The notes below the pieces were generated by a model. The model searched no databases, was not told where the DNA came from, and saw only the letters and a list, made by a program, of their open reading frames with translations. A stretch of 32,464 nucleotides of DNA from Bacteroidaceae bacterium (GTDB lineage Bacteria > Bacteroidota > Bacteroidia > Bacteroidales > Bacteroidaceae): NCBI GenBank assembly GCA_017552435.1, contig JAFZPZ010000046.1, positions 1 to 32,464 of the forward strand, written 5' to 3'. Numbering within the stretch: position 1 is the first letter of the stretch; each line of letters starts with the position of its first letter. Both the position numbers and the translations under genes were made by a program. Positions 2-32,135 of this stretch are shown piece after piece.

Positions 2-418
2 ATGACAAAGGGCGAGTTCGTGAAGGGTGAGATGAAGAAAGTCCGCCATGCCACAGACCTGGCCATTGCGGACATCTATCAGACCATCATGGCCATGCTG
101 GACCTCATGCCCAGCGCCGAACTCACCACCCTCTACACCCAACTGAAGGGTATCGAGCTCTACGCCCGCCAGTACTACCTGAAGGAAGGCAGCAGCACCG
201 GCTCCGGCAGCAGCAGCGGCGGTGGAACAGCCTCCCCCGACCCCTCCCAAGGAGGGGGGAATGGTGGAACTACGCCAGACCCAGGTACCGGAGGTGGCAC
301 GACGCCTGACCCTGGAACCGGAGGCGGCACGACTCCAGACCCGGGCACCGGCGGTGATTCAGGTGGCGGCGATGACAATGGGGATGATAACAATGGCCCC
401 ATCGGGGACGCTGAGTAA
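2..418 (+). CDS. Unrecognised protein, 3' part, with Gly/Pro/Asp-rich tail
   Basis: The frame is open from the window edge to a TAA at 416-418. An ATG sits at base 2, but the gene may begin upstream. Residues 10-62 look helical and contain no motif I can name firmly; they loosely recall the helical C-terminal segment of DUF6261-type Bacteroidota proteins, which is a guess. From residue 63 the chain becomes low complexity: a Ser/Gly linker, three copies of TTPDPGTGG(G), then an acidic Asp/Asn/Gly end. A G/C-rich palindrome is embedded in the linker (residues 77-87). The first residues (KGEFVKGE) resemble the repeat-derived peptide FVKGES in topB, so another repeat may straddle the window edge. 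A hairpin follows at 423-439. Confidence 0.6.
   Translation: MTKGEFVKGEMKKVRHATDLAIADIYQTIMAMLDLMPSAELTTLYTQLKGIELYARQYYLKEGSSTGSGSSSGGGTASPDPSQGGGNGGTTPDPGTGGGTTPDPGTGGGTTPDPGTGGDSGGGDDNGDDNNGPIGDAE
231..260 (+). repeat. G/C-rich palindromic element, copy A (in coding frame)
   Basis: Perfect 7-bp arms CCCCTCC (241-247) and GGAGGGG (251-257) flank CAA, preceded by GCCTCCCCCGA. It is read in frame as SPDPSQGGGN inside the first gene. The same core with the same flank occurs in topB (2118-2150) and, less completely, in tldD (29589-29636). Confidence 0.8.
269..358 (+). repeat. Three 30-bp tandem repeats coding TTPDPGTGGG
   Basis: Three adjacent 30-base units (269-298, 299-328, 329-358) each code TTPDPGTGG plus Gly, or Asp in the last copy. 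Nearly all differences between copies are at third codon positions; only the final codon of copy 3 changes the residue. Confidence 0.85.
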
Positions 419-422
419 AGCT

Positions 423-439
423 CGTGCCTCGATGGCACG
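423..439 (+). terminator. Hairpin just after the first gene, possible weak terminator
   Basis: CGTGCC (423-428) pairs with GGCACG (434-439) around TCGAT, five bases after the stop codon. The following tract (ACTTTACTC) is poor in T, so this may be a 3' stabiliser rather than a full terminator. Confidence 0.4.
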
Positions 440-447
440 ACTTTACT

Positions 448-475
448 CAATTGACAATTAACAATTGACAATTAA
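448..475. repeat. A/T-rich 14-bp tandem repeat
   Basis: CAATTGACAATTAA occurs twice head to tail, at 448-461 and 462-475, without mismatch. It is one of the A/T-rich repeats seen between genes here; a related tract is inserted in uxaC. Confidence 0.8.
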
Positions 476-481
476 TTGGCT

Positions 482-514
482 GGGCTCGTGTCGCAATGAT
501 GCGGGCCCGCTTTA
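482..514 (+). terminator. G/C-rich stem followed by T-rich tract
   Basis: GGGCTCG (482-488) pairs with CGGGCCC (502-508) with one G-T pair, followed by GCTTTAATTAAT. It could end transcription from the first gene. The right arm lies in a perfect palindrome, GCGGGCCCGC (501-510). Confidence 0.45.
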
Positions 515-523
515 ATTAATGAA

Positions 524-548
524 GAATTAAAAATTAAGAATTAAAAAT
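524..548. repeat. A/T-rich direct repeat
   Basis: GAATTAAAAAT is repeated at 524-534 and 538-548 (period 14). Similar lysine/asparagine-coding tracts recur inside genes in this window. Confidence 0.7.
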
Positions 549-690
549 GATAATTGGGACTTCGTAGGATAATTCTTCACTCTTCTTGGATGCTTTAGCA
601 CCAAGTCGCACTTTTTATGTGCGGAACACTCTTCACTTTTCATTCTTAACTTTTTTTCGTACCTTTGACTTCGTCGAAGGTTCTCCCGCT

Positions 691-730
691 CGGAAATAAA
701 AAGAAAACTCATCTTTTCTTTTGTATTTCG
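691..730. repeat. Long inverted repeat overlapping the topB promoter
   Basis: The left arm at 691-707 (CGGAAATAAAAAGAAAA) and the right arm at 714-730 (TTTTCTTTTGTATTTCG) are complementary apart from one bulged base on each side, around a six-base loop. The -33 TTG of the topB promoter lies in the right arm, so a cruciform or hairpin would compete with polymerase binding. Confidence 0.65.
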
Positions 731-750
731 CTCGCTTATTCGTACCTTTG
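720..750 (+). promoter_or_regulatory. Bacteroidota-type promoter for topB
   Basis: TTTG at 720-723 is followed, after 19 bases, by TACCTTTG (743-750), matching the TTG / TAnnTTTG consensus of the Bacteroidota primary sigma factor. Transcription should begin near 757, about 24 bases before the topB ATG. Confidence 0.8.
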
Positions 751-780
751 CAGGACAAATTGGTAAAATAGTCTCCAAGA

Positions 781-2760
781 ATGATAGTTTGTATCGCAGA
801 GAAACCTTCTGTGGCGCGTGAAATTGCCCACGTGCTCGGGGCCGAGAAACAAAAGGACGGGTATCTGGAGGGCAACGGTTACCAGGTGACCTGGACCTTC
901 GGCCATCTGTGCGAACTCAAGGAACCGCACGAATATACGCCGATGTGGAAGAGCTGGAGCCTGGCACAATTGCCGATGATTCCACCGCGTTTCGGCATCA
1001 AGCTCAAACAGGACAAGGGAGTGGAAAAACAGTTCCATATTATAGAGGGACTGATGCAGAATGCCGATGAAATCATCAACTGCGGTGATGCCGGACAGGA
1101 GGGCGAACTCATCCAGCGATGGGTGATGCAGAAGGCAGGAGCCAAGTGCCCCGTCAAACGCCTGTGGGTGAACAGCCTGACGGAGGAAGCCATTCGCGAG
1201 GGTTTCCAGACGCTCAAGGACCAGAGTGCCTATCAGGGACTCTACGAGGCTGGGCTGATGCGAGCCATCGGAGACTGGCTGCTGGGCATGAACGCGACGC
1301 GGCTCTACACGCAGAAATACGCTGCAGGCAGGAACCAGGTCCTCAGTGTGGGCCGGGTGCAAACCCCTACCCTCGCCCTCGTTGTGGCCCGACAGAGAGA
1401 GATTGACAATTTCGTACCGCGCCAATCGTGGGTGCTCTCAACGCTCTATCGCGACACGAAATTCAACGCGATTGTCCGTGATGAAGAGGCTGAAGCAGAG
1501 GATGCTGCAGCCGTTGCTGCCGCTGCGGAGAAAGGCAAGAAGCAAAAGCCTAAAGGCATCATCTACAAACCCCTGGAATATGCGACAGAAGCCGAAGGAA
1601 AGGCTGTCATCGATACCATCAAGGATAACCCGTTCACCGTTCTCTCTGTTGAGAAAAAGAAGGGTACAGAGGCTCCTCCGCGACTCTATGACCTGACCGG
1701 TTTGCAGGTGGATTGCAACAAGAAGCTGGGACTTTCGGCCGAGCAGACGCTCTCCATCATCCAGAGCCTCTACGAGAAGAAGGTCACGACCTATCCGCGT
1801 GTCGATACGACCTTCCTGCCCGACGATGTCTATGCCAAGTGTCCGCAGACGATGAACGGCCTCTACCAGACGAAGTTCGCGGGTGTGGCTCCCTATGCCG
1901 ACCTCATCCGTCCCCTCGGCGGAGGCAAGCCACTCCGCAAATCGAAGAAGGTGTTCGACAACTCGAAGGTGACAGACCACCATGCCATCATCCCGACCGG
2001 CGTTATTCCGCAGGGCCTCACAGAACTGGAGCAGAAGGTCTTCGACCTCGTTGCCCGCGCCTTCATCGCTGCTTTCTACGACGATTGCAAGTTCGAGACG
2101 ACAACGGTAATAGGAAAAGCCTCCCCCAACCCCTCCGAAGGAGGGGAGAACGAAAAGGATAGCATCCTGTTCCGCACTACTACCAAGGTAATTATAGAAG
2201 AAGGATGGAAGATCGTTTGGGCTTCATCAGACTCCCCTGTGCAAGAGGAGAACCAAGAAGCCTCAACTATCAACCCCTCTCCCTACAAGGGAGAGGTTGG
2301 GAGAGGGTCTTTTGTCAAAGGTGAGAGCGGACCACACATTCCTTCCATTACCGAGAAATGGACCACACCGCCGAAACCCTACACCGATGCCACACTGCTG
2401 CGGGCTATGGAGACAGCAGGCCGCTTTGTGGAGGACGAGGAGTTGCGCGATGCCCTCAAGGAGAACGGAATCGGGCGTCCCAGTACGCGTGCAGCCATCA
2501 TCGAAACCCTGATTCGCCGCCACTATATCCGCAGGGAACGCTCTTCGCTACACCCCACCCAGACAGGATTCGAGCTCATCGACCTCATTCACGAGGAACT
2601 GCTCAAAAGTGCCGAACTGACCGGTCGTTGGGAGAAGAAACTGCGCCAAATTGAGCGTCACGAATACGAAGCCCGTACTTTCCTGGACGAGCTCAAGCAA
2701 ATGGTCACGGATATCGTTCTTTCTGTTCTTCGCGACAATAAGGGACCTGGCATACAATAA
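781..2760 (+). CDS. topB: DNA topoisomerase III (type IA)
   Basis: Type IA topoisomerase: cuts one DNA strand through a 5'-phosphotyrosine and passes the other, helping to decatenate replicated DNA in the cytoplasm. The N-terminal Toprim domain shows AEKPSVA with Glu7 and GDAGQEGE with Asp103, Glu107 and Glu109; the second Asp of the usual DxD pair is Gly here. The central domain carries GRVQTPTLAL and the active-site block TTYPRVDTT, with Tyr338 as the nucleophile. The C-terminal part has GIGRPSTRA. No zinc-ribbon tail is present, so it ends sooner than the longer relatives. Two repeat-derived inserts (about residues 446-457 and 494-518) interrupt the region before the conserved TDATLLRAME block. 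The start is fixed by the promoter at 720-750. porE follows 46 bases later on the same strand. Confidence 0.93.
   Translation: MIVCIAEKPSVAREIAHVLGAEKQKDGYLEGNGYQVTWTFGHLCELKEPHEYTPMWKSWSLAQLPMIPPRFGIKLKQDKGVEKQFHIIEGLMQNADEIINCGDAGQEGELIQRWVMQKAGAKCPVKRLWVNSLTEEAIREGFQTLKDQSAYQGLYEAGLMRAIGDWLLGMNATRLYTQKYAAGRNQVLSVGRVQTPTLALVVARQREIDNFVPRQSWVLSTLYRDTKFNAIVRDEEAEAEDAAAVAAAAEKGKKQKPKGIIYKPLEYATEAEGKAVIDTIKDNPFTVLSVEKKKGTEAPPRLYDLTGLQVDCNKKLGLSAEQTLSIIQSLYEKKVTTYPRVDTTFLPDDVYAKCPQTMNGLYQTKFAGVAPYADLIRPLGGGKPLRKSKKVFDNSKVTDHHAIIPTGVIPQGLTELEQKVFDLVARAFIAAFYDDCKFETTTVIGKASPNPSEGGENEKDSILFRTTTKVIIEEGWKIVWASSDSPVQEENQEASTINPSPYKGEVGRGSFVKGESGPHIPSITEKWTTPPKPYTDATLLRAMETAGRFVEDEELRDALKENGIGRPSTRAAIIETLIRRHYIRRERSSLHPTQTGFELIDLIHEELLKSAELTGRWEKKLRQIERHEYEARTFLDELKQMVTDIVLSVLRDNKGPGIQ
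2118..2150 (+). repeat. G/C-rich palindromic element, copy B (inside topB)
   Basis: CCCCTCC (2130-2136), GAA, GGAGGGG (2140-2146), preceded by GCCTCCCCCAA. It is read in frame as ASPNPSEGGEN. The same orientation and reading frame is used in copies A and D. Confidence 0.85.
2271..2308 (+). repeat. G/C-rich palindromic element, copy C (inside topB)
   Basis: CCTCTCCCT (2276-2284) and AGGGAGAGG (2288-2296) form 9-bp perfect arms around ACA, followed by TTGGGAGAGGG. It is read as NPSPYKGEVGRGS. This is the second element in the same 200 bases of topB. Confidence 0.85.
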
Positions 2761-2806
2761 AATGCAGCCCTTTTCCGTTATTATTTAGAACAAAAGACAA
2801 ACGCTG

Positions 2807-4991: not shown

Positions 4992-4992
4992 G

Positions 4993-5066
<74 letters not shown>

Positions 5067-7170: not shown

Positions 7171-8805
7171 ATGCATAGGACTTTATTGCTTCTTATTTGT
7201 GGCTTTTGTGCCCTGATTGTGTCTGCTGTTCCGGCAAAGCGAGAACGCCACACCCTTACACTTGCCGATGGTTCCACCCTGGTTGCAACAGCGATGGGCG
7301 ATGAAATACTACATTTCTTCCGGACAGACGACGGGCGCTTCCTGCAATGTGACAGCTTGGGCATCGCTCACTTCGTAGATTCCGAGGCTCTGCAAACCAG
7401 CTGGCAGGCAAAAGCCGAAAGGCGGCAATCCATCAGAAACAAGCGGAACAATGCAAGGCGAGCAAGGCAACAGAGCCGTCAGAATATCATGACAGGCTCT
7501 AAAACTGGACTGGTCATCTTGGTTGAGTTCCCCGATGTGCCATTTAATTACTCCAGTTCTACCTTCAAGCAGTTTTTCAACGAGGTTGGCTATTCTGACG
7601 AAATCAATATCGGCTCTGTACATGATTACTTTTACAGCGCCAGTTATGGGCATTTCAACTTTACGTTCGATGTCGTAGGTCCCGTTACAGTAAGCCACAA
7701 CCTCTCCTACTACGGCGCTAACAATTCCCGTGGAGATGACATGTATCCTGCCACTATGGTCTCCGAAGCTGTAGAGATAGTGGATAGAAAGATTGATTTC
7801 AGCAAATACGACTGGGATGGAGACGGAAAGGTAGAGCAGATATTCGTCATACACTCCGGTCACGACGAGGCACAGAGCAGCGTCCGCAACGACATCTGGT
7901 CGCATGCATGGACTCTCACCGAGGCCCTGGAAGAAGAAAACGACGGCAATGGCGCCATCACAGTAGATGGAGTCACCGTCGATTGCTATGCTACCAGTTC
8001 TGAACTTCGGAACAAAAGAGGTACATCCATCGCAGGCATCGGTACGGCCTGCCACGAGTTCTCCCACTGCTTCGGCTTGCCTGATTTCTACGACACGAGT
8101 GGTAGCAGTTTCTGCATGAACTCATGGGACCTTTTGGATTATGGCTCATACAACGGCGACGGCGGCATACCGGCAGGCTTCACCAGCTACGAACGCATGT
8201 TCTGCGGTTGGCTAGATCCCGTAGAACTTACAGAACCGATAGAAATCAAAGATATGCCTTCCCTCATCTCTGAGCCTGTCGCATACATCCTGAAAAATAG
8301 CGGGTGCAGCGACGAATATTACCTATTGGAGAACCGACAAAAGGAAAGTTGGGATGCAGAACTGGGAGGACACGGAATGCTGATTCTACATATTGACTAC
8401 GACAGTCAGGCATGGGAAAAGAATACTGTGAATACGATCCGCAACCACCATCGTTTGTCAATTATCCCAGCTGATAACCTCCTCTCTTCTTTTACTTTAT
8501 CTGGCGACCCTTGGCCTGGTACTTCAAGAAACACAGAACTCTCCGACAGTTCCACTCCAGCCGCTACTCTCTTCAATGAAAATGCGAATGGAGAGAAGCT
8601 GATGAACCACTCTATCACGGAAATCAAGGAAACAAGGGAAGGCTATATTAGTTTCATCTTCGACGAAGAAGCACTGGGCATAGATGAAATAAAAAATGAG
8701 AAGTTAAAAGGGAATAATAATATTTACGACCTCAGTGGTCGGAAATGCTCAATGCCCGCAAAGGGAATTTATATTCAAGAGGGCAGAAAGTTATATATAC
8801 GATGA
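7171..8805 (+). CDS. Secreted M6-family metalloprotease, second copy
   Basis: A 544-residue paralogue of the preceding gene. A signal peptide (about 1-20, ending VSAVPA) is followed by the M6 catalytic domain with HEFSHCFGLPDFYD starting at residue 295 and a matching WDLLDYG. The loop DWDGDGKVE corresponds to DNDGDGKVD of its neighbour. It lacks the FN3 domain. The C-terminus is a short sorting-type tail (YDLSGRK ... GIYIQEGRKLYIR) joined by a lysine-rich linker (DEIKNEKLKGNNN) that comes from an A/T-rich repeat. It starts two bases after the previous stop, and its TGA overlaps the next ATG (ATGA), so the three genes are probably co-translated. Similar domains but clear divergence suggest an old tandem duplication. 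Confidence 0.9.
   Translation: MHRTLLLLICGFCALIVSAVPAKRERHTLTLADGSTLVATAMGDEILHFFRTDDGRFLQCDSLGIAHFVDSEALQTSWQAKAERRQSIRNKRNNARRARQQSRQNIMTGSKTGLVILVEFPDVPFNYSSSTFKQFFNEVGYSDEINIGSVHDYFYSASYGHFNFTFDVVGPVTVSHNLSYYGANNSRGDDMYPATMVSEAVEIVDRKIDFSKYDWDGDGKVEQIFVIHSGHDEAQSSVRNDIWSHAWTLTEALEEENDGNGAITVDGVTVDCYATSSELRNKRGTSIAGIGTACHEFSHCFGLPDFYDTSGSSFCMNSWDLLDYGSYNGDGGIPAGFTSYERMFCGWLDPVELTEPIEIKDMPSLISEPVAYILKNSGCSDEYYLLENRQKESWDAELGGHGMLILHIDYDSQAWEKNTVNTIRNHHRLSIIPADNLLSSFTLSGDPWPGTSRNTELSDSSTPAATLFNENANGEKLMNHSITEIKETREGYISFIFDEEALGIDEIKNEKLKGNNNIYDLSGRKCSMPAKGIYIQEGRKLYIR
8688..8730 (+). repeat. A/T-rich repeat tract in the linker of the second M6 protease
   Basis: A run made of GAAATAAAAAATGAG and AAGTTAAAAGGGAA codes a Lys/Asn/Glu linker just before the YDLSGRK tail. 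It resembles tracts at 10497-10535, 30749-30787 and 13262-13305. Confidence 0.6.
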
Positions 8806-10619
8806 AAAGGATTCTCTTATTTTATATTTGCTATTTCTCACTTTTCTCTTTGCTTGCCACTACCATTGCACGCTATAATGGCAGTCGCATCTTCTGGGAT
8901 TCACGAACCCCTGTTACCATTTTCAGCAGCGGCGGTTATGCACGTCTGATTGAGCTCAAGGACGGGAGATTGCTGGCTTGCTGTGAGAGCGGAGGCATCA
9001 AGGTCTGTTTCTCTTCGGATAAAGGCAAAACCTGGTCCACTCCTACCCTCATCGCACCAAATTCCAACAACACACCTAATTGCGTGCCCGACCTGGTACA
9101 ACTCTCCGACGGTACCATTATCGTCGGATACAACCCGCGTCCGTCGAAACCCTATACAGAAGACCGTAGATTTGGCATCCGGGTGCGCAGGAGTACCGAT
9201 AACGGCAAGTCCTGGAGTGAAGAAATCTTTGTCTATGACGCTGACTATACCTTCGAGAACGGCTGTTGGGAACCATCTTTCCTCGAATTGCCAAGCGGAG
9301 AACTCCAGCTTTATTTTGCTGACGAGAGCCCATACATGACAACCTCGGAGCAGCAGATATCACTCTGTCGCAGTTTTGATGGCGGGCTGACCTGGTCTTC
9401 TCCGCAGCGCATCTCCTATCGCAGCGGTTATCGCGACGGGATGCCTGTCCCTGTTTTACTCAACGACAAGAAAAACATCGTGGTTGCCATCGAGGACAAT
9501 GGTTGGAGCGGCATCGGAGATTTCCTCCCAACAACGGTACGTACCACACTCTCTAATAACTGGAAGAATAATTCCTACGTTAGCGGTAACAGTAGCCAAC
9601 GTAATCGTAGCATCAACTACAACTACTGCCCCATCGCAAAAGGCGGAGCGCCCTATCTGCGTGTCCTGCCTAACGACGAGACCATCCTTTCACATCAGTC
9701 AACTTACGGCGACGGCGACAACATGAAGATGTTTGTCTATGTCGGAAACAAACAGGCAAAGGATTTCAAAGCGATGTCCAGACCGTTCTATCAGGGCACG
9801 ACTAAAGGCTGTTGGTGGAACTCTCTCGCTGTCATAGATACAGGCATTGTTGTCGCAGTAGGTGGATTGGATGGCAAAATTGCAATGGTGAAAGGCTATC
9901 CCATGAAACAGTTTATGGCCCCTTATGCCTCTCAACTCACGGATGGCCGGATTACCTCTGCCGATACTTATTACAGCCCTTCTGCAAAGCAGGTTCCAAT
10001 GGGAAATGAGACAGGGACTTTCGCATATACAGACTTCTCCTACGACAGCGATATGCTCTATATGACCAGCTTGGTTTATCGACGCGATGCTCGGTCGGAA
10101 GAACCATATCCTGACGGTGTCGTACTTTATGTTGAAACAAAAGGTGCCAGTACAGATGTCCCTATGCCCTCTGCCTATCGGTTCAACATTCTGCCTAACG
10201 GTATACTCAATATTAGTAAAGGGAATGGAAAGGATTGGGTGGAAACGGAATTGCCGACGGTTCGGGCAGCCGGTGTTGTTGCCAATGCGAACTACCGTAT
10301 AGAAATAGCTATCCCCTGGTCGGAAATAGGACTCAGCGCAGCCCCCATTGAACAAAGCCCAAGCATCAACCTGGAAATCATTACAGGCGATGGTTTGCAA
10401 CAACTTGTGGAGCGTATCCCCGATTCTTCGCCGCTCAAGCCTGCCACATGGATGCCGCTAAAACTCATCGAACACGATACTACGGGAAATGATGAGATTA
10501 AAAGTAAAAAATTGCAGGTGAAAAATGAGGAAGCTGTCTACGACCTGAGCGGCCGAAAATCGTCAATGACTCATCGGGGCATTTTCATCCAGGACGGAAG
10601 AAAATTCGTAATGCGATAG
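8802..10619 (+). CDS. Secreted sialidase-fold (BNR/Asp-box) protein with CBM9-like domain
   Basis: A 605-residue secreted protein of the sialidase-type beta-propeller superfamily. After a signal peptide (about 1-22), three Asp boxes recur at a regular 60-residue step: SSDKGKTWS (about 71), STDNGKSWS (about 131) and SFDGGLTWS (about 191). Residues about 415-560 look like a family-9 carbohydrate-binding-type domain, with the characteristic YRIEIAIPWSEIGL. The C-terminus is a short T9SS-like tail (VYDLSGRK ... GIFIQDGRKFVMR) behind an A/T-repeat-derived linker. I cannot locate the full arginine triad of true GH33 sialidases, so the substrate could be sialic acid or another glycan. The ATG at 8802 overlaps the previous stop; an earlier in-frame ATG at 8745 lies inside the upstream gene and is unlikely. 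A link to glycoprotein breakdown with the two proteases is inference. Confidence 0.8.
   Translation: MKRILLFYICYFSLFSLLATTIARYNGSRIFWDSRTPVTIFSSGGYARLIELKDGRLLACCESGGIKVCFSSDKGKTWSTPTLIAPNSNNTPNCVPDLVQLSDGTIIVGYNPRPSKPYTEDRRFGIRVRRSTDNGKSWSEEIFVYDADYTFENGCWEPSFLELPSGELQLYFADESPYMTTSEQQISLCRSFDGGLTWSSPQRISYRSGYRDGMPVPVLLNDKKNIVVAIEDNGWSGIGDFLPTTVRTTLSNNWKNNSYVSGNSSQRNRSINYNYCPIAKGGAPYLRVLPNDETILSHQSTYGDGDNMKMFVYVGNKQAKDFKAMSRPFYQGTTKGCWWNSLAVIDTGIVVAVGGLDGKIAMVKGYPMKQFMAPYASQLTDGRITSADTYYSPSAKQVPMGNETGTFAYTDFSYDSDMLYMTSLVYRRDARSEEPYPDGVVLYVETKGASTDVPMPSAYRFNILPNGILNISKGNGKDWVETELPTVRAAGVVANANYRIEIAIPWSEIGLSAAPIEQSPSINLEIITGDGLQQLVERIPDSSPLKPATWMPLKLIEHDTTGNDEIKSKKLQVKNEEAVYDLSGRKSSMTHRGIFIQDGRKFVMR
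10497..10535 (+). repeat. A/T-rich repeat tract in the sialidase-like gene
   Basis: ATTAAAAGTAAAAAATTG and GTGAAAAATGAGG code the linker DEIKSKKLQVKNEE directly before the YDLSGRK tail, the same position as the tract in the preceding protease. Confidence 0.6.
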
Positions 10620-10647: not shown

Positions 10648-11328
10648 TTAAATAATCCTACCGTCCTGCATGGAGATTTTCTGGTCGGCGAGGTCGGCAA
10701 GCTGTTCGTCATGAGTCACAATGACGAAGGTCTGCCCCATCTGGTCGCGGAGGTCGAAGAATAGGCGGTGCAGTTCCTCTTTGTTATGAGTGTCGAGGGA
10801 ACCGCTCGGCTCATCAGCGAAAACCACATCAGGTTTATTTACGAGGGCTCGGGCAACTGCTACCCGTTGTTTCTCTCCGCCAGAGAGTTCATTGGGCTTG
10901 TGCGAGACACGGTCTGAAAGTCCCATAAAAGCAAGCAACTCCTCTGCACGCTTCTTGGCTTCGCGTTTCGATGTTCCACCTATGAGGGCTGGCATCATTA
11001 CATTCTCGAGTGCCGTGAACTCGGGCAAGAGCTGGTGGAACTGAAAGACGAAACCCATGTGCTTGTTGCGGAAGGCCGAACGCTTGGCATCACTGAGCTT
11101 CATGACATCGATGCAAGCCTCTCCCCGACCTTCTTCAGAAGAGAGGGAGAATTTGACGCTACCGGAATCTGGTTTGTCCAGTGTTCCCATTATCTGCAAC
11201 AGTGTTGTTTTGCCCGCGCCGCTAGCTCCGACAATGCTGACTATCTTTCCCCGGTCGATATCGAGGTCAATGCCTTTCAGTACTTCGAGATTACCGAAGC
11301 TTTTCCTTATGTTGCGAATTTCTATCAT
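10648..11328 (-). CDS. lolD: LolD-like ABC transporter ATP-binding protein
   Basis: A 226-residue ATPase of the LolD/MacB class, which powers lipoprotein release or related export from the inner membrane. All motifs are present: Walker [11 protein letters not shown]-loop [11 protein letters not shown], signature LSGGEKQR, Walker B DVVFADEP and H-loop IVTHD. About residues 58-69 ([12 protein letters not shown]) form a short insert made by a G/C-rich palindromic element, in the loop between GSV and DVMKL. The ATG overlaps the TGA of the upstream antiporter-protease (ATGA at 11328-11325), so translation is probably coupled. No permease partner lies in the window, so the lolD symbol is by resemblance. 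It converges on the sialidase-like gene with a 28-base gap of TTCTTACCTCTTACC-type repeat. Confidence 0.88.
11115..11152 (-). repeat. G/C-rich palindromic element, copy I (inside lolD)
   Basis: On the plus strand this reads GCCTCTCCCCGACC, then CTTCT-TC-AGAAG, then AGAGGGAG. It aligns with the flank and core of copies A and B but is reversed relative to the host gene, so a different peptide ([12 protein letters not shown]) is added. Confidence 0.65.
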
Positions 11329-14300
11329 TTCCTTAGTTCTTTTCTTCCGTTTGTTACGACAATACCCTTGTAGTGCTCGTCAACCTTTTGTCCGGCGAGA
11401 TTATATAAAACATTCTCCCCTCTAGGGGAGATGGAAAGTGGTCTCACTCCATCATAATGTTCCATCAAGTAATCGAGTCCCGCTTCTGCATCTATCTCGC
11501 CATAGCCATAAACATTGTTGGGATATGTGAGTGTGGGGTCATGATGCCGGCAAGTAGCTGCAAAGACCTCGATGACCTGTTCGCGAGTCAGTGTCGGTAC
11601 AGCTTCCATCCACTGAGCGATGATGCCCGCCACAATGGGGCACGCCATACTGGTTCCTCTCTGTGAAGACCAGGCATAGTTGCGACCATTGAAGGTATAG
11701 CGAGCTACATCGTAATCAGTCATGTAATCACCGGGATTCATTTCACTGTAATAGCTATTGAAACCGGCCACAATATTGGTTCCGGGTGCAACCACATCGG
11801 GTTTGATGTTTCCCATCAGCGTAGGGCCTTTGCTGCTATAGGTTGCAACCTCGCCGCTGCGCCCTCGGTCGTAATCCATCCATTCTCCATCACAATTGTA
11901 GAATCCCGTCTTGTAGGATGTGGCGCCTACACAGATGACACTTGGGTCGCTGCCTGGGTAGTGCACATTATGCGTTGATATAGCATCCTGGTATTCGGGG
12001 TAATCAGGCTCTTTTGTGAAGAAACCAAGTTCTTGAAAGGCTTCCACCTCCGACTCCTCACCTTCGATGCAGATTCCCATTTTCAACGATAGAATGTTTC
12101 CTGCGCCCAGTTTGGTGAGTATAACATCTGTCGCAAGCTGATCAGAGTCGTAGCAACTCTGATAGCTTTTGAACCGGAGCTCGAAGGTGAGTCCGCCTGC
12201 GGTAATGGTATCTGTCATAAGACTGTCTTCTGTGGTAAGGATGTCTTCAATCGGCGCCTCATAGCAGAGGTATTTCTCCGTAGGAGACTTTATGAAATCT
12301 AGTCGTACACGGAAGTTGCCACTACTGCGAAGTAACACATTTGTGACTTTGCCTGAAGGCTGAATCAGGGAAGCGACTTTTTCTCTTCCTTCGGGCTTAT
12401 GCATATAGGTTCCGTAGAGGCTCTGATTGCCTGCTGCAGCACAGATGAGGCGTCCGGGCCGCACAAGGCTATCCAGAACGGCGCTATAGAGTTTTGATTT
12501 GCCCAAAAGATCCTCGTGCGAGCCTTCGCTGAAACTGATGACACAGGGCTTCCCAACTTTGTCGGCATAGCGGAAAATGTACTCGAAGCCTAGCAGGTCG
12601 ATGGCAGATCCGTAGAGCTCCCACAGAGAATCCGGCACAAGTTCCTTGTCGTCGGAAACTGCATTGGAAACCAGACAAATGTCAGCATCTGGAGCCATTC
12701 CGATATAAGGTGAGTCGTATCCGCTGCCGGCAGCAGTACTGGCGGTATGTGTGCCGTGATATTGCAAACGGCTGTCCGATGAGCAAGCTTTGCGGAGCAT
12801 ATCGGCACTCGTCGTATAGGATTTGCCAATAGGCAGTTCCAAGCCATTGACGATTAAGGAGGATTGTGGGCTCTCTAAGTCAAGCATATCCCAAAAGGAA
12901 CGGATACGATAGGTGTCCAAGTCACGGCTGTAAAATGTGGGATTCGTCAAGTCGAAACCGATATCCATCACGCCTACAACAACGCCTCTGCCTGTATAGG
13001 CCGAACGACTTTGAGTGGGGGTACGCAGGACATCCGAGCGGGTGATGATGGCAGACGTGTCGGTCTGCGCTTCACAAGTTCCACCGCATTCTATGCGAGT
13101 CACTTCTGACCGAAGCGAAAGCGCGGCAAGTTCCGTCTTTGGAACAGCTGCAGCATAGATGTTCCCCCAATGCCCATACATCTTGCAACCATGCTCCTCG
13201 AGAACTTTCTCGCTGTCGCTCTGCACTAAAACAAGCATTCTGGGGGTATATTGCGTTTGAGCCTTTAATTTATCTTTTTTCATTTTCAATTTTTCACTCA
13301 ATACTGCATACCTCACCATAGGTGACATTTTGTCATACCGGGGGCTTTGTGCTTCTGCAAGAAGTGGGAGCATAAGCGCCAACAAAACTACTGATGCGCG
13401 GCGGGCAGTAAAAAGCCAACGACGAATCAAACCACCAAGAGAGCGCGGTTGCCGCTGAACAGCTGTACCATTGGGGGTGAAGACAGAGATGCTCTCCTGA
13501 GGTTCTCCCCATTGGTCAGGGAAGAGAAGCATTACGCTTGTCTGACTGAAATAGTTATGAATTATCTGAGGCAATTCCTCGAAACGGCTCTGATAGGAGA
13601 TGAAACCAGGGCGAGCCGATACAATCACAAGCATGCTATTCTGGTTCAACTCGTTTTGCAGGTTCAGGAACTGCACCCAATCGTTCATCGCATAATAGTG
13701 TGAGCGAACATGACTGTGCTTCTGCGACATATAACCCATAATATAGGATATTGTCTCGGTGCTGGCGTGATACTCCAGATGGCAATCAAGTTCTTCACCA
13801 ATACGGCAGATGTGTTCCAACCATTTGTAGAAACCCACTTCGTATTCCGCTTTCTTGGGAACGGCAATCACTACACGGCGGATGGTACCGGGCGGAACGA
13901 GGTTGCGCACCACCATTACTTCTCGGTGACTGCCGCTCACCACATTATCTATAGTAGGTCCGAGCGAGGACTTCGCCCCGTCGGTTGTATGGTCGTTCAA
14001 GCAAAGGATAACTTCACCGCAATCATACTCGTTCATCGTATGCAGAATACCGCCGGCAATGTTAGTGCTCATTCGGTTGAGCGTTGCCATTGGTACATCG
14101 GCAGCAGCAGCTATCATCTGAGCTTTCTCCAACAGAATACGACCGAAATAGACCCCAACTGTCTCTCCCTTAAAGTGGGAGGAAGCTAAAGCCTGCCCTT
14201 TGAGGAAAGGATGGGAGGGATCTTCATAAGAGACATAAAGTCCCATCAAACTGTCGGGGATGAAGGGATTGCGGATGAGGATGGCGAGTTGCGTCATCAC

Positions 14301-15554
14301 ATCCACATTGTCTTCCTGACTGTATGAAATCAGGCACTTTCCGTGATAGGAGCCTCGGTTGTCCTCGAGAGATGTATTACTCAGGGCTATCTTCTTGGCT
14401 CCGCAATTGGTGGTAAAACCGCTTATGATGCAACTAATGAGAATAAGCATCACCGTACCGCTAAGTATCTCGTCGCTCATGAGTCCCACACCCGGGGCTG
14501 TACCGATAGTGACGATAGCCAAAGCACCGGCTGCATGGGCATTGGTCAGGCCGAACATGAGCCACATTCCGTGTCTGTTCTCGCCCATCGTCCAAGCCAT
14601 AATTGCTGATGCAAGCAACTTGGACAATATGCCTGTCACCACCATTACTGCAATCAGCCAATACGTTTCAGGATGCCGGACAAGGATGCCAAAGTCAATA
14701 ATCATGCCCACTCCGATGAGGAAATAGGGAATAAACAGGGCATTGCCGACGAACTCCAGACGCGACATCAGCGGGCTGGTCTTGGGAATGAGACGGTTGA
14801 CTATCAATCCGGCAAGGAAAGCACCAAGCAGGCCTTCCAGTCCTACCATCTTTGCCAACGATGCGCTGATGAAGACAAGTGTCAGTATGAATATAAACTG
14901 CATGACACTGTCCTCTACGCGACGTAGGAACAAACGACCCAAACGAGGAAAGAAAAAAACAACAAATCCCACATACAAAGCACACTTCAAGCCGAAAGCC
15001 ATCCAATCGAGCCACAAAGTGTTGGAATTCTTAATACCTACTACAGCCGCAAGCACAAGTAAGGCGGCAAATAGGGCAAAAGCCGTTGCAACGACGCTGA
15101 CAACTACTACTCTGTGACGGTTCAGACCGTATCGCCCTACGATTGGGTAAGTGACGAGGGTATGACTGGCATAGATGCAGGCCAATAGAATACTGGTAGG
15201 CAGTTTGCAGTCTAGTAACAGCATACTCGACGCTATGCCAAGCACAAAAGGAATGCTAAAGGTTAGGATGCCGAAACGGAGTCCAGTGTGTCCATAATGC
15301 TCCACGCTTCCCATTTCCAGCTCAAGACCGGCTAGGAACATGATGTAGTAGATACCCACCTGTCCGAATAGTTTGAATGAACTGTCGTGTGCCAACAGAT
15401 TCAAACCAAATGGTCCAACCAGAACACCTGCCAAAATCAAGCCGATGACCGGCGGGATACGAAGTCGTCGGAACAGCAACGGAACAATCAAGATGATGCC
15501 GAGCACCACCGAGAAAATCCATGTAGGGTCGGTTATTAAAGCGGTAGAATTCAT
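11325..15554 (-). CDS. CPA2 cation/proton antiporter fused to a secreted S8 subtilase
   Basis: One uninterrupted frame (1409 residues from the ATG at 15554) encodes two proteins. Residues about 10-390 form a dozen hydrophobic segments of a CPA2/KefB-type Na+(K+)/H+ exchanger. About 400-690 is a cytoplasmic USP-like tail typical of Bacteroidota antiporters, ending [11 protein letters not shown]. Then comes an internal signal peptide: basic [10 protein letters not shown], hydrophobic [14 protein letters not shown], and an AEA|QS cleavage site near residue 735. The remainder is a complete subtilase with Asp (VMDIGFD, 864), His (YHGTHTAS, 933), oxyanion Asn (AAAGNQS) and Ser (RGTSMACP, 1302), then a T9SS-like tail (LYNLAGQK ... 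GIVVTNGRK). A TTG codon at 13430 could alternatively start the protease alone. A GTG at 15566 overlaps the -7 box, so I prefer 15554. Two palindromic elements and an A/T-rich tract lie in frame. lolD overlaps its stop. Confidence 0.85.
11411..11440 (-). repeat. G/C-rich palindromic element, copy G (before the subtilase tail)
   Basis: CTCCCC (11415-11420), TCTA, GGGGAG (11425-11430). On the coding strand it reads ISPRGEN, in the same frame as PSQGGEN of other copies, just before the VLYNLAGQK tail. Confidence 0.75.
13262..13305 (-). repeat. A/T-rich repeat tract inside the subtilase propeptide
   Basis: Read on the coding strand, GAGTGAAAAATTGAAAATG and AAAAAAGATAAATTAAAGG give [14 protein letters not shown], just after the predicted signal-peptide cleavage region. 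It resembles the SEKLKIDS tract that begins tldE. Confidence 0.65.
14155..14222 (-). repeat. G/C-rich palindromic element, copy H (antiporter tail)
   Basis: The plus strand shows CTCCC-TTAAAGT-GGGAG (about 14165-14181), then CCCTTTGAGGAAAGG and ATGGGAGGGA. On the coding strand it reads [11 protein letters not shown]...[10 protein letters not shown], where SSHFKGE matches SPYKGE of topB copy C in the same frame. It sits in the cytoplasmic USP-like region. Confidence 0.65.
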
Positions 15555-15565
15555 GTTTGAAGCCA

Positions 15566-15573
15566 CAAAATTA
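15566..15573 (-). promoter_or_regulatory. Possible -7 box for the antiporter-protease gene
   Basis: TAATTTTG on the minus strand fits TAnnTTTG, but no TTG lies at the right distance, and the leader to the ATG at 15554 would be only a few bases. Confidence 0.4.
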
Positions 15574-15760
15574 CGAAAATTTATCCAAATTTTCAGGAGT
15601 ATTCACTTTTTTTTTGAGAAAAAGCAGAAAAAATCTTGCAGACATCGGCATGTTGTGCTGAGTCCTGAGCATAGTTGTCGTGAAATTTGATATTTATCAA
15701 AAACATAAGCAAAGACAAATAATTATGAACTAGGAACTATAAACTATAAACTATTTTTCG

Positions 15761-15768
15761 TAACTTTG
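15761..15768 (+). promoter_or_regulatory. -7 box of the asd promoter
   Basis: TAACTTTG at 15761-15768, followed by GCAGCC, lies 43 bases before the asd ATG. No clear -33 TTG is visible; the upstream part is an A/T-rich AACTATAAACTATAAACT repeat. Confidence 0.6.
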
Positions 15769-28243: not shown

Positions 28244-28264
28244 CATTACCAATCTATAAACAAA

Positions 28265-29371
28265 ATGAAAAAGAATTTCTTACTGACAATGCTTGCTGCC
28301 ATTTGTCTGGTAGCTTGCGCAGAGACACAGAAAAAGACTGAAATCAAGGTTGTTGGCGACTTGGGCGACCCTCAACCCACGTTCCTCCACAATATGTTCG
28401 GGCGTGAAACCTATGCCGAAGGACAGGTTGCTGATGGCGTAGTTACGTTCGTTGTGGATACCGTCCAGGATGCGATTGCCGTAATTGGACGCAGCGCCGA
28501 CAGACGTCAGCCCGTCTGCACCGTTATCCTCGACGGCCAGCCCATCGAAGTGACCATTAAGGATGGCGAGGCTGAGATAACAAAGGGTTCCGAGAGCAAC
28601 ATGAAACTGGCCGAAGCAAATGAGCGTTTAAAGATGGCGAGCAGCCCCATGGAAGATCTCATGAAGGAGTACAGCGAGGCTCACGAGAAGTATAACGGCA
28701 ACATCCCCGATGACATCATGGAAGGCTTCGACAAGCGTTACGATGAAATCTCCGAGGAAATTACTGCCACACAGAAGCAAATCATCTCCGAGAACACAGA
28801 TAATCTCGCTTCTATTTACTTCCTGCGCGCTGCCGGCGACGCTCTCGGTGTCGAGTTCATCGAAAACTTCCTGAAGGACTACAAGTACAAGGACAACGAG
28901 ATGCTCGAGCCTGTAATGGCCTCAATCAGTGGCGAGAAGAACAAGCTGCCTGGAGCTCCTGTTGTGGACTTCGTAGGCAAGGACCTCGAAGGCAACGAGT
29001 GCCACCTGACCGACTATGTTGGCAAGGGCAAGTATGTGCTTGTTGATTTCTGGGCAAGCTGGTGTGGTCCCTGCCGTGGTGAAATGCCTAACGTAAAGGC
29101 CAACTACGAGAAGTACAAGGAGAAGGGCTTCGAGGTTGTAGGCATTTCCTTCGACAACGACAAGGAAGCTTGGGCAAAGGGTGTCAAGGACCTCGGCATC
29201 ACTTGGCCCCAGATCAGCGACCTGAAGGGCTGGCAGTGTGCTGCAAGTGATCTCTACAACATCAAGGGCATCCCTGCAACCATCCTTTATGGTCCCGATG
29301 GCAAGGTCATCAAGGCAGGCCTTCGCGGTGAGGAACTAGGCAAAGCTTTGGCAGAATATCTTGGTGAATAA
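28265..29371 (+). CDS. TlpA-like thioredoxin-fold lipoprotein with DUF4369-type N-terminal domain
   Basis: A 368-residue lipoprotein. The lipobox is LVAC with Cys18. About residues 25-120 form a beta-rich domain of the DUF4369 kind usual in Bacteroidota, followed by a helical, charged segment (about 120-220) and an AhpC/TSA/TlpA thioredoxin fold (about 232-368) with the redox pair C267-G-P-C270 in WASWCGPCRGEMP and a cis-proline loop GIPATIL. It probably exchanges thiols in the periplasm, facing the inner or outer membrane; the partner is unknown. It begins 21 bases after uxaC and overlaps tldD at its end, so it may be co-transcribed with both. Confidence 0.9.
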   Translation: MKKNFLLTMLAAICLVACAETQKKTEIKVVGDLGDPQPTFLHNMFGRETYAEGQVADGVVTFVVDTVQDAIAVIGRSADRRQPVCTVILDGQPIEVTIKDGEAEITKGSESNMKLAEANERLKMASSPMEDLMKEYSEAHEKYNGNIPDDIMEGFDKRYDEISEEITATQKQIISENTDNLASIYFLRAAGDALGVEFIENFLKDYKYKDNEMLEPVMASISGEKNKLPGAPVVDFVGKDLEGNECHLTDYVGKGKYVLVDFWASWCGPCRGEMPNVKANYEKYKEKGFEVVGISFDNDKEAWAKGVKDLGITWPQISDLKGWQCAASDLYNIKGIPATILYGPDGKVIKAGLRGEELGKALAEYLGE

Positions 29372-30722
29372 AATCCTTGCTGCAGCCCTCTCTGGTGGTA
29401 GCGAGTATGCCGATATCTTTTCAGAGAATACGCAAATCAGCAGCATGGTGCTGCAGGATGGTGCGGTAAGTCAGGCCCAGCAGGTTTGTCTCTACGGCGC
29501 CGGCATTCGCGCGGTCCAGGGTACTCAGACGAGCTATGCCTATACGATGGACTTGAGCGAGGAAGCCTTGATGAAGGCAGCAAAAAGCCTCACCCCAACA
29601 GCCTTCCCCATCCCCTCCCAAGGAGGGGAGAACAGAAGATTTGTGGCCGAGGGGAAAGCCATCGGCGAGACAAGCGGAACTTCTCTTCCTCCTTCCCAAG
29701 TCCGTCAACTTCTCCTGCAGGTCGAGGAGAGAGCCCGTGCGCTTGACGATTCCGTCGTCAAGGTCAAGGCATACGTCTCGCAACGGATGCAGGAGATACG
29801 GTTCGAGGCCAGTGATGGCACGGCGTTTCACGACTTCCGCCCTCGCACCTCACTTTCCGTGAATATCGTCATGGAGCGTGGCGGCAAGACGCAGATGTGC
29901 TATGCCTCGCGCATGCTTCAGATGGGTGCCGAGTTCTTCTCGGATACCCTCATAGATGAGGTTGTTCGCGAAGCCATCCGACGCACCGATTTCCTTTTCT
30001 CCGCCTCGCAGATCGAGGGTGGCGAGATGCCGGTCGTAATGGCAGCCGGCAGCAGCGGCATCTTGTTGCACGAAGCCATCGGACACGCTTTCGAGGCTGA
30101 TTTCATCCGCACCGGCGACAGCATCTTCACAGGACAACTGGGCAAGCAAATCTGTCATCCCAGCATCAGCATCGTGGATGACGGCACACTTTCAGGCGAT
30201 GCAGGGATGTTGCGCCATGACGACGAGGGCATCCCGGGACAATGCACGACCCTTGTCGAGCATGGCCGCCTCAATAGCTACCTGTACGACCGTATCAGCG
30301 CCCGACATTTCGGTGTCAAGCCTACAGGCAACGGCAGACGCGAGAGTTTCCGCTGTATGCCCATTCCCCGAATGCGCTCCACCTATATGCTGCCTGGCGA
30401 GGCAAAGGAGGAGGACATCATTCGCAGCGTGAAACGCGGCATCTATGCCCAGTCCTTCACCAACGGCCAGGTGCAGATAGGCGCAGGCGACTTCACTTTC
30501 TTTATGAAGACCGGCTATCTCATCGAGGACGGCCGCTTGACGCGTCCCCTTCGCGACCTCAACATCATCGGTAACGGCCCCGAAGCACTCCGGCGCATCA
30601 GTATGGTGGGAGACAATCTCAAAATTGACCACAGCGCCAGCATGTGTGGCAAGGAGGGACAGAAAGTGGCAGTCAGCCAAGGCCTGCCGACTGTGTTGAT
30701 TGATAAATTAATCGTTGGATAA
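29364..30722 (+). CDS. tldD: TldD-family metalloprotease subunit
   Basis: A subunit of about 452 residues of the TldD/TldE protease, which in E. coli matures microcin B17 and degrades CcdA. The zinc site HEAIGH (about 236-241) with AFEADF after it, the DDEGIPGQ, PTGNGRRES and TYMLPG blocks, and CGKEGQ near the end all match TldD. There is no ATG at the 5' end: it must start at GTG 29364 (or TTG 29361), inside the last codons of the upstream gene, which implies translational coupling. Residues about 76-92 (LTPTAFPIPSQGGENRR) come from a palindromic element. tldE follows after 36 bases. Confidence 0.9.
   Translation: MNKILAAALSGGSEYADIFSENTQISSMVLQDGAVSQAQQVCLYGAGIRAVQGTQTSYAYTMDLSEEALMKAAKSLTPTAFPIPSQGGENRRFVAEGKAIGETSGTSLPPSQVRQLLLQVEERARALDDSVVKVKAYVSQRMQEIRFEASDGTAFHDFRPRTSLSVNIVMERGGKTQMCYASRMLQMGAEFFSDTLIDEVVREAIRRTDFLFSASQIEGGEMPVVMAAGSSGILLHEAIGHAFEADFIRTGDSIFTGQLGKQICHPSISIVDDGTLSGDAGMLRHDDEGIPGQCTTLVEHGRLNSYLYDRISARHFGVKPTGNGRRESFRCMPIPRMRSTYMLPGEAKEEDIIRSVKRGIYAQSFTNGQVQIGAGDFTFFMKTGYLIEDGRLTRPLRDLNIIGNGPEALRRISMVGDNLKIDHSASMCGKEGQKVAVSQGLPTVLIDKLIVG
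29589..29636 (+). repeat. G/C-rich palindromic element, copy D (inside tldD)
   Basis: CCCCTCC (29612-29618), CAA, GGAGGGG (29622-29628), with GCCTCACCCCAACAGCC upstream. Read in frame as IPSQGGEN, identical in frame and orientation to copies A and B. Confidence 0.85.
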
Positions 30723-30748
30723 GACCCCCTAACCCCCTTTAGGGGGGA
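30723..30748. repeat. G/C-rich palindromic element, copy E (between tldD and tldE)
   Basis: GACCCCCTAA, then CCCCCT (30733-30738), TT, AGGGGG (30741-30746). It begins directly after the tldD stop codon and is an inverted partner of copy F. Confidence 0.8.
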
Positions 30749-30787
30749 ATAATGAAAAATGAAAAGTGAAAAATTAAAAATTGATAG
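30749..30787 (+). repeat. A/T-rich repeat tract supplying the tldE start
   Basis: AATAATGAAAAATGAAAAG and TGAAAAATTAAAAATTGAT. The ATG at 30759 in this tract is the only in-frame ATG before the conserved part of tldE. Confidence 0.7.
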
Positions 30788-32135
30788 TTTTTCTCATAAA
30801 GGAGATTGGGAACTCCCCCTAAAGGGGGCCGGGGGGTCCATATATTTTGCCGAAGAGAGGCTTCGGCAGCTCTCGTCAAAGCTCGCCTACAAGCTTGTCC
30901 TGCTCGAGAATCACGAGGATGACATCATCCTGCGCGACGGGAAGGTGGAGAAGATGCTGCGCGCCACATCCATTTCACTCGCCATCAACCTCTACCTCGA
31001 CGGGCGCGAGGGGTTCTTCTATACCAACGATTTGCGAGCCGAATCTGTCGGCGACTTCATCCGAAGGGCTTACGAAACCACCAGCCTTCTGGAACCCGAT
31101 GAGAGCCGAACCCTTGCCGACCCCAGCCGCTACTACAAAGGTGGAGGTCCGGACCTGCAGAACTTCGACGCCTCTCTCTCCGAAATCGACCCAAGGGAGA
31201 AACTCCGGCTGATGCAGGACATAGCTGCGGAAGTGGAGGGAGCCGACAAACGCATCATCAGTATGCAGACACGCTACATGGATCGCCAGCATCAGGCCCA
31301 CTACCTCATCAGCAACGGCTTCGACGGCTGCGAGCAGACCAGCTACTGCACTCTGACCAGCCTGATAACCGTCGAGGGCGTGGGTGGTCAGCATCCCATG
31401 GACGGATGGGGCGAGACGCGTCTCTTCTTCCGCCAGATGCCCCATACAGGCATCGCTCCGATTGCCCTCAGGCGTACCCTGAACAAGATTGGACAACGGC
31501 CTGCTCCCAGCGGACGATACCGCATGATACTGGAGTCGCCCTGCGCAGGAAACTTCCTGCAGCCAATACTGAATGCAATGAATGGACAGGCCTTGCAGCA
31601 ACGCACTTCGTTCCTCCGGGGAAAGCTCGGAGAGCAGGTTGTTTCGCCACTCGTGAACATCGTCGATGACCCGTTGCAGCCGGGCACTCGCGGAGCCGTG
31701 CATTTCGATTACGACGGCGTTGCCACACAGCGGCGTGAACTCTTCACCGAAGGTCGGCTGCAAACCTATTTCATAGACACCTCGATGGGTCGGAAGCTTG
31801 GCTTGAAGCCCACCACGCAAGGCATTCACCATCTTGTGATGGAACCCGGGAGAGAAAGCCTCGACGATGTGATTGCCGACTCCAACAGGGCAATCCTCGT
31901 CACCGACTTCAACGGCGGCAACTGCGATCCCGTCACGGGAAATTTCTCCTATGGCATCGAGGGTTTCCTCATCGAGAACGGAAGCATCGTTCAGCCTGTC
32001 AGCGGTATGAATGTCACAGGCAACATGCTCGATGTCTGGCAGCGCCTGAGCCATGTCAGCAACGATGCCGACCCCTGGGAAACCGAACTCATCCCCACCC
32101 TATCCTTCGAGGACGTCGCCTTTGGCGGCTGCTGA
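30759..32135 (+). CDS. tldE: TldE/PmbA-like protease subunit with repeat-derived N-terminus
   Basis: A 458-residue partner of TldD; this subunit lacks the zinc HExxxH motif. Family features include the LRDGKVEKMLRATS strand near the N-terminus, VNIVDDPLQPG, FDYDGVATQRRELF, GRKLGLKPTTQ and the C-terminal FSYGIEGFLIENG block. The first 29 residues (MKSEKLKIDSFS...) are coded by an A/T-rich repeat and then by palindromic element F (LPLKGAGGS), and no in-frame ATG exists until about residue 66, within the conserved fold. So the repeats now provide the start codon, or a non-ATG start near IYFAEERL is used. A terminator follows at 32163-32201. Confidence 0.88.
   Translation: MKSEKLKIDSFSHKGDWELPLKGAGGSIYFAEERLRQLSSKLAYKLVLLENHEDDIILRDGKVEKMLRATSISLAINLYLDGREGFFYTNDLRAESVGDFIRRAYETTSLLEPDESRTLADPSRYYKGGGPDLQNFDASLSEIDPREKLRLMQDIAAEVEGADKRIISMQTRYMDRQHQAHYLISNGFDGCEQTSYCTLTSLITVEGVGGQHPMDGWGETRLFFRQMPHTGIAPIALRRTLNKIGQRPAPSGRYRMILESPCAGNFLQPILNAMNGQALQQRTSFLRGKLGEQVVSPLVNIVDDPLQPGTRGAVHFDYDGVATQRRELFTEGRLQTYFIDTSMGRKLGLKPTTQGIHHLVMEPGRESLDDVIADSNRAILVTDFNGGNCDPVTGNFSYGIEGFLIENGSIVQPVSGMNVTGNMLDVWQRLSHVSNDADPWETELIPTLSFEDVAFGGC
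30813..30840 (-). repeat. G/C-rich palindromic element, copy F (N-terminus of tldE)
   Basis: CCCCCT (30815-30820), AA, AGGGGG (30823-30828), then CCGGGGGGTCC. It is an inverted copy of element E, about 75 bases away, and is read as LPLKGAGGS in tldE. Confidence 0.8.

Follow-up and report, generated by a model that had tools for sequence, protein, structure and literature searches.

Inverted palindromes around homing-endonuclease-like genes suggest a largely overlooked type of mobile DNA by which bacterial proteins gain mostly harmless peptides

The described systems that come closest to the elements treated here are the repetitive extragenic palindromes (REPs) and REPtrons, which comprise many short repeats made of a tail and a hairpin, solo as well as in inverted pairs, with an enzyme gene between inverted copies and with some copies in frame in genes (PMC3733652, PMC6006769). 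Palindromes with these properties occur in a stretch of 32,464 nt from a Bacteroidaceae bacterium (contig JAFZPZ010000046.1, analysed as a whole and called the window below), and elsewhere in the same genome (G000, 3.50 Mb in 129 contigs, estimated to be 88% complete) similar palindromes bracket genes for a nuclease of the DUF559 family (PF04480). The differences from REPtrons are that the enzyme here is a DUF559 nuclease and not a Y1 HUH transposase, that C-rich ends (AGCCTCCCCC in type 1, GACCCCCTAA in type 2) take the place of the GTAG/CGTC tetranucleotide, and that a near-identical core is found across many families of one phylum. The REPs of these two papers either go together with Y1 enzymes or carry GTAG/CGTC tails; in-frame REPs are described there within tnpA_REP genes (PMC6006769) and REPs within open reading frames, including RPE-4 and RPE-6 of R. 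conorii (PMC3733652). An earlier note on this DNA had compared its in-frame palindromes with those of Rickettsia; the coding location is no peculiarity of the present lineage, because REPs within open reading frames had already been described.

The Rickettsia palindromic elements (RPE) are also palindromic repeats that sit in frame in conserved proteins, but they have another host, and the likeness considered here is one of insertion habit. We know of no nuclease partner of RPE, nor, outside the REP/RAYT systems, of the movers of most small bacterial palindromic repeats. Vsr-like homing endonucleases of the I-Bth0305I type (3r3p) share the fold of the enzyme and are likewise candidate selfish genes in or beside conserved genes, whereas the ends of the DUF559 unit are palindromes that are also found solo in many copies; no intron or intein was noticed, and none was searched for. 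Miniature inverted-repeat transposable elements (MITEs) resemble the solo palindromes in being short inverted-repeat elements without the gene of a longer relative, but no DDE-type transposase was seen in the units and no target duplication was shown. The Caulobacter protein VsrA, which has the same domain as the DUF559 partner, has a predicted role in mismatch repair, and roles in repair and DNA damage have been described; a word search of the retrieved text of that paper gave no mention of palindromes (PMC12907096). Among the matches listed from open-licence PubMed Central papers, preprints excluded, no report joined DUF559 to palindromes or described the repeat, which is no proof that none exists, and DNA and peptide words of the repeat matched no paper in that collection. 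Passages of PMC8266576 and PMC2694212 contribute nothing decisive.

We consider the palindromes to be short and non-autonomous versions of a mobile unit, some 470–490 bp long, that has the DUF559 gene as its sole gene, and give this reading a probability of roughly 0.7. It is carried by the bracketing and its controls, by the nuclease fold with its invariant acidic residues, by the covariation of enzyme and palindrome, by dispersed solo copies and tail-out pairs, by presence and absence at orthologous sites and by a bias towards one reading frame, and it predicts that the palindromes are mobilised by DUF559. By analogy, the unit is best read as REPtron-like, with another enzyme.

Clustering of the genes near elements at loci from across the phylum led to two cases (L144 and L149) in which, according to Pfam, DUF559 and guanylate kinase are joined in one reading frame; in both, the two parts meet at a type-1 palindrome. 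The source genome of the window has three full-length DUF559 genes and one partial match. All three full-length genes are bracketed by inverted palindromes, each of its own subtype, with arms of 28–35 nt that are 83–94% complementary and lie 399–436 nt apart. Matches to DUF559 are present in 100 of 139 genomes of the genus, and flanks were scored at 33 genus loci (these three and 30 fetched ones), with a score line of 30 at first pass that was lowered to 28 later; counts at both are given. At first pass 27 of the 33 loci scored at least 30. When the gene was placed by profile, 32 reached 28 and 30 reached 30, the last one (L283) standing at 27, while shuffled flanks gave 0 of 330 at 28. Control loci scored at 30 or more in 0 of 29 cases for topB and in 1 of 15 for tldD, and loci with Y1 transposase genes, which served as the positive control, did so in 14 of 20. 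In a wider sample, 170 of 296 Bacteroidota genomes had a DUF559 match; 18 of 30 fetched phylum loci scored at least 28 and 16 at least 30, with shuffled flanks at 0 of 300 at 28. A DUF559 match was also found in 40 plasmid records, and six of nine loci fetched from these, which belong to other phyla, scored above their own shuffles (Pseudanabaena, Synechocystis with 27 versus 22, Picosynechococcus, two from Deinococcus, and Sphingomonas). Five phage records had DUF559 matches, which were weak, as were the matches obtained with PADLOC, among others to homing-endonuclease and DpdF models.

At one of the three loci of the source genome (L265), a DUF559 frame of 346 aa runs through the palindrome into guanylate kinase, the kinase part being recognised by eye, and open frames of at least 230 aa that hold DUF559 were present at 8 of 33 genus loci and 12 of 30 phylum loci. 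Apart from guanylate kinase, DUF559 was seen in frame within larger genes at L374, L376, L382, L283 and L293; by eye, the host appears to be a leucyl-tRNA synthetase at L374 and HsdR-like at L376 and L382. Names of further host genes given in this paper, outside the window and the fusions confirmed by Pfam, were likewise read by eye from the sequence.

Judged from a structural model and from conserved residues, the DUF559 partner is a nuclease of the PD-(D/E)XK type and kin of I-Bth0305I and Vsr. The model of the nuclease part of L144, built on an alignment of five sequences, has a mean predicted local distance difference test score (pLDDT) of 76.6, and its fold matches 3hrl (E 1.5e-7), I-Bth0305I 3r3p (E 1.4e-4) and Vsr 1vsr (E 0.023); by sequence, 3hrl (E 1.5e-23) and 3r3p (E 0.029) are matched. 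Invariant positions in 68 DUF559 domains are T11, E14, W18, Q33, D42, E53, G56, H59, D68, R71 and R84.

Enzyme and palindrome appear to be coupled. The identity of two nucleases is correlated with the similarity of their palindromes (rho 0.32 over 1542 non-syntenic pairs from 57 loci; 0 of 2000 permutations), after exclusion of 54 syntenic pairs and of 11 of the 68 loci, which had no pair scoring at least 24. Within the genus, DUF559 is present in 37 of 40 genomes with the type-1 core versus 63 of 99 without (p 0.0003, uncorrected for kinship), and among the 20 genomes with at least five type-1 copies, 19 have DUF559, nine have any Y1 match and three a strong one. The site between yicC and gmk is seen in three states: the whole unit in the source genome (L265), a solo palindrome with a DUF559 remnant, recognised by eye, at L173, and an empty site at L203.

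These distributions also bear on the possibility that we are dealing with REPs of the usual sort, whose mover is a Y1 HUH transposase (TnpA_REP/RAYT) that has since been lost or is missing from the assembly, between which DUF559 happened to land. REPtrons do occur in the genus, since inverted flanking repeats are present at 14 of 20 Y1 loci (L091–L110); Y1_Tnp matches were obtained in 62 of the 139 genus genomes and in almost half of the copy-rich ones, and at L109 a C-rich hairpin lies about 230 bp from the Y1 match. Of the 40 genomes with type-1 copies, however, 5 have a strong Y1 match (at least 60 bits), versus 21 of 99 without such copies, and in the copy-rich genomes strong Y1 matches are far rarer than DUF559. 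Near Y1 genes, moreover, some hairpins are of a different make, for example GCACCCC..GGGGTGC (L104, L108). The source genome gave no match to Y1_Tnp (PF01797) in its assembly of an estimated 88% completeness, and a custom Y1 profile found none at the 114 phylum loci listed, a null result that is weak because the profile had no positive control. A Y1/RAYT link was rejected as unsupported, the source genome having no match and strong Y1 genes not tracking type-1 copies, and we regard this explanation as improbable.

The palindromes have a common architecture, in which a C-rich tail on the 5' side precedes a hairpin. Type 1, of about 33 nt, consists of AGCCTCCCCCNN, CCCCTCCNAAGGAGGGG and some four further bases, and type 2 of GACCCCCTAA and CCCCCTTTAGGGGG. 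With at most one mismatch, the core CCCCTCCNAAGGAGGGG was found at 43 places in the source genome, 30 of them exact, and at none with the reversed pattern as a control; the core CCCCCTNAAGGGGG of the second type gave 72 forward and 68 reverse matches, 140 in all with at least two self-complementary places scored twice, and again none in the control. The genome-wide scan for which the earlier note had called thus bears out its family of repeated elements, which is real, dispersed and often in frame; what the note overlooked is the DUF559 unit, which lies outside the window and is bracketed by like palindromes. Across the phylum the exact 28-nt pattern is present at no fewer than 114 loci, and all 80 record titles shown were, by our reading of the titles, from Bacteroidota. 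Neighbouring palindromes, among the matches listed, formed 33 tail-out pairs, no tail-in pairs and six pairs of the same direction, and tail-out is also the orientation of the ends of the DUF559 unit. Solo palindromes share their ends with the longer unit, as deletion derivatives of the MITE kind do, and what by eye looks like a remnant of such a unit is the one at L173. A further repeat, AATGGTCAATGGTCAATGG, which encodes a peptide of the MVNGQ type, adjoins type-2 palindromes in GH32 and esterase genes (L230, L258).

Comparison with orthologues indicates that many of these palindromes are insertions. The earlier note had listed nine copies in the window, A to I (Table 1), eight of them in coding sequence and comparable to the in-frame RPE, and such insertion is supported for B, C, D, H and I as lineage-specific copies, while E and F form an inverted pair; identical peptides at identical sites in distant genera were not found at the sites tested. 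In topB, neither B nor C is present at its site in any of 29 aligned same-genus loci, the nearest 91% identical. Both sites are loops of variable length; remnants of B may exist in L033 and L037 and perhaps one of C in L036, and the C loop holds a different palindrome in L032 (clear) and L052 (decayed). Copy I in lolD corresponds to a gap of 30 nt in 8 of 8 orthologues, and H to a gap of 42 nt in 5 of 5 (net 39 in L433). Among eight orthologues of tldD, copy D is absent from L064, L067, L068 and L069, the loop is occupied by inverted pairs of other subtypes in L062, L065 and L066, and L063 is rearranged. None of 6 orthologues has the tail-out pair E/F between tldD and tldE, although other repeats occupy that place in some of them. 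Copy G is a real hairpin but shows no net insertion relative to five orthologues, and was dropped as an inserted member of the family. Elsewhere in the genome, 15 in-gene sites were chosen, of which 11 were aligned with relatives (L003, L005, L012 and L256 were left out), and five of these show a net insertion relative to most relatives: thyA (net +24 nt; absent in 8 of 10, shared with G020, and replaced in one relative by different sequence of the same length), the gene of a TonB-type receptor (+24 nt; absent in 3 of 4), lacZ (absent in 3 of 3), an esterase gene (absent in 4 of 4, the palindrome being accompanied by another repeat) and the first GH32 site (absent in 3 of 5, the other two having inverted pairs of other subtypes).

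One could alternatively suppose that the in-gene palindromes are low-complexity loops which resemble each other through composition, being GC-rich and made of Pro, Gly and Ser codons. The copies do lie in variable loops, one set of them lies in Gly-rich tails, the decayed copies I and H and also G are weak when taken singly, and two genes discussed below show no net insertion. Composition alone, however, would hardly give 43 places against 0 in a control, nor the 28-nt pattern in many Bacteroidota, the use of both strands or the empty sites of relatives, and for B, C, D, H and I the low-complexity reading is already contradicted; we hold it to be very unlikely.

The relation of the palindromes to coding sequence was studied with a simple codon-score gene caller, not with curated annotation. 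Two of the 30 exact type-1 core places of the source genome have identical flanks and were counted as one, which gives 29 distinct copies, and the 13 places with one mismatch were excluded; 25 of these lie within genes, one overlaps a gene end and three are intergenic, compared with 75% of random positions inside genes. For type 2 the corresponding numbers are 15, 7 and 25 (47 copies in 40 stretches, drawn from the first 100 of the matches listed), and for phylum copies, likewise among the matches listed, 72, 11 and 68 out of 151. In-gene copies are thus common, yet phylum-wide they are rarer than chance, since 83% of random positions fall inside genes. Those that do lie in genes show a marked preference of frame. 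Forty sense copies among the matches listed are divided as 34 in frame 1 (ASPxPSxGG), five in frame 0 and one in frame 2, and antisense copies as 18, 9 and 5. The bias is also seen for sense copies of units that are open in all three sense frames (29/3/1, n = 33, p 1e-10), for frames 1 and 0 only (34 of 39, p 1e-6) and with one copy per gene, after removal of L201 and L176 as orthologous duplicates (main frame used by 29 of 32 copies in sense and by 13 of 25 in antisense). In the source genome 19 of 19 sense copies are in the main frame, 12 of them in one Gly-rich protein family as grouped by eye, which leaves seven independent genes. Free of stops in all six frames are 11 of 17 distinct units of the source genome and 113 of the 151 phylum units; some units carry a stop that closes one frame. 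The preferred frame is most simply explained by selection that favours a bland peptide. Gly/Asp-rich C-terminal tails with in-frame type-1 palindromes, again grouped by eye, were seen at L001, L004, L009, L014, L017, L019, L020, L021, L024, L027 and L028, and copy A belongs to this group.

Several observations weigh against a mobile unit driven by DUF559. The partial fourth DUF559 match of the source genome (L268, 22.9 bits) had no C-rich hairpin in a simple scan, 12 of the 30 phylum loci score below 28, several of them without a palindrome, and no bracketing was found at three of the nine plasmid loci (Photobacterium, Sinorhizobium and Azospirillum). The fetched genome loci were the best-scoring matches and not a random draw. 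A score of 28 is also attained when flanks are exchanged among loci (336 of 1056 combinations for the genus, 104 of 870 for the phylum), because the elements have one shared architecture. Of the 11 further in-gene sites, those in htpG and an rsmF-like gene show no net insertion, since relatives hold other sequence of about equal length, and four give no clear picture because their relatives are scarce or vary too much (the genes for an M3 peptidase, for a RecD-like protein, whose element is shared with L343, and for a histidine kinase, where a different inverted pair occurs in L359, and the second GH32 site). The net length of the inserts ranges over 24, 24, 30 and 42 nt, so that their edges are not sharp, and no target duplication was established. 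Type-1 copies also occur in genomes without a DUF559 match, namely 22 copies in G027 and further ones in G012 and G026, although the assemblies are incomplete.

DUF559 could be a passenger of the palindromes and not their mover, a homing-type nuclease that enters pre-existing palindromes which spread by another route. Such repeats, being common, would serve a nuclease of this type as safe landing sites, and solo copies far exceed units, with 43 type-1 core places for one type-1 unit in the source genome; the 22 copies in G027 fit as well. A passenger would not be expected to have two flanks that agree in subtype and covary with the nuclease, and the empty yicC–gmk site in L203 is, in this one case, free of a palindrome. 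We consider passengers unlikely, if slightly less so than movement by a Y1 transposase.

A complete unit consists of a palindrome of about 28–35 nt (5' tail and hairpin), the nuclease gene and an inverted palindrome, with the tails pointing outward. If DUF559 is the mover, the nuclease may recognise the folded palindrome of its own subtype and nick or cut target loops, after which repair of the break could bring in a copy of one palindrome, of two or of the entire unit; internal deletion of a unit would yield solo copies and short pairs. In-gene copies would persist when they are free of stops and encode a bland peptide (Ser, Pro, Gly, Asn, Glu), and we propose that both the preferred frame and the location in variable loops come about because only such copies persist. 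A broader claim can be made, for and against which we see about equal odds, that palindrome-bracketed DUF559 units from several phyla form a class of mobile DNA that is new in kind and in which folded palindromes are spread by a nuclease of the homing type. Because the majority of solo palindromes have no stop in any of the six frames and one frame is a bland linker, conserved genes would on this claim be colonised, with the nuclease sometimes fused in frame to host enzymes, as in the guanylate kinase frame of 346 aa.

The coordinates of the nine stretches in the window proved correct on checking the sequence, and the assignments of the host genes as topB, lolD, antiporter-protease, tldD and tldE/pmbA hold (Table 1). 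Eight of the nine copies lie in predicted coding sequence; F lies merely at a possible N-terminal extension. The 17-nt core CCCCTCCNAAGGAGGGG is present in A, B and D; E and F have the other core, CCCCCTNAAGGGGG, and for G membership of the family is unsupported. Perfect C/G-rich hairpins with a stem of at least seven occur five times in the window (A, B, C, G and D), while 17 of 20 dinucleotide shuffles of the window had none and three had one. At the gathering threshold, Rfam matched only a tRNA in the window. The window further holds a dispersed set of AT-rich repeats that resemble AATGAAAAATGAAAAGTGAAAAATTAAAAAT (448-562, 632-667, 8679-8718, 10500-10526, 13264-13295, 15720-15768 and 30747-30781), one copy of which sits between palindromes E and F.

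Table 1 Palindromes in the window and their host genes
Feature	Position	Strand	Description	Remark
Copy A	229..261	+	type-1, tail AGCCTCCCCCGA and hairpin CCCCTCCCAAGGAGGGG	in frame as TASPDPSQGGGN in the Gly-rich C-terminal tail of the open reading frame 2-418
Copy B	2118..2150	+	type-1, in topB, read as KASPNPSEGGEN	site without palindrome B in 29 same-genus loci
Copy C	2271..2308	-	in topB, tail ACCCTCTCCCAA and hairpin CCTCTCCCTTGTAGGGAGAGG on the - strand	palindrome C in none of 29 same-genus loci
Copy I	11115..11152	+	decayed palindrome in lolD (gene on the - strand)	orthologue gap
Copy G	11411..11440	.	hairpin near the C-terminus of the antiporter-subtilase	family membership unsupported
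Copy H	14155..14222	+	decayed, tail GACCCCAACTGT and CTCTCCC..GGGAG, in the antiporter-subtilase gene	orthologue gap
Copy D	29589..29636	+	type-1, in tldD, read as TAFPIPSQGGEN, hot-spot loop	core match, orthologues
Copy E	30723..30748	+	type-2, tail GACCCCCTAA and hairpin CCCCCTTTAGGGGG, left half of the inverted E/F pair (tails outward)	
Copy F	30813..30840	-	type-2, right half of the E/F pair, translated as LPLKGAGGS at the N-terminus predicted for TldE	
topB	781..2760	+	host of B and C	
lolD	10648..11328	-	host of I	
Na+/H+ exchanger and S8 protease fusion	11325..15566	-	1413 aa, host of H	
tldD	29361..30722	+	host of D	
tldE/pmbA	30759..32135	+	predicted N-terminus overlapping F	

Because inverted copies bracket a homing-endonuclease-like gene, the palindromes point to a type of mobile DNA that has drawn little notice and by which proteins acquire peptides that mostly do no harm. 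A common and little-understood gene family, DUF559, would in this way be tied to a common and unexplained repeat, and the nuclease with its cognate palindrome makes a simple pair that can be tested. For the study of protein evolution the palindromes also provide an experiment done by nature, in which many unrelated proteins have received almost the same peptide in frame.

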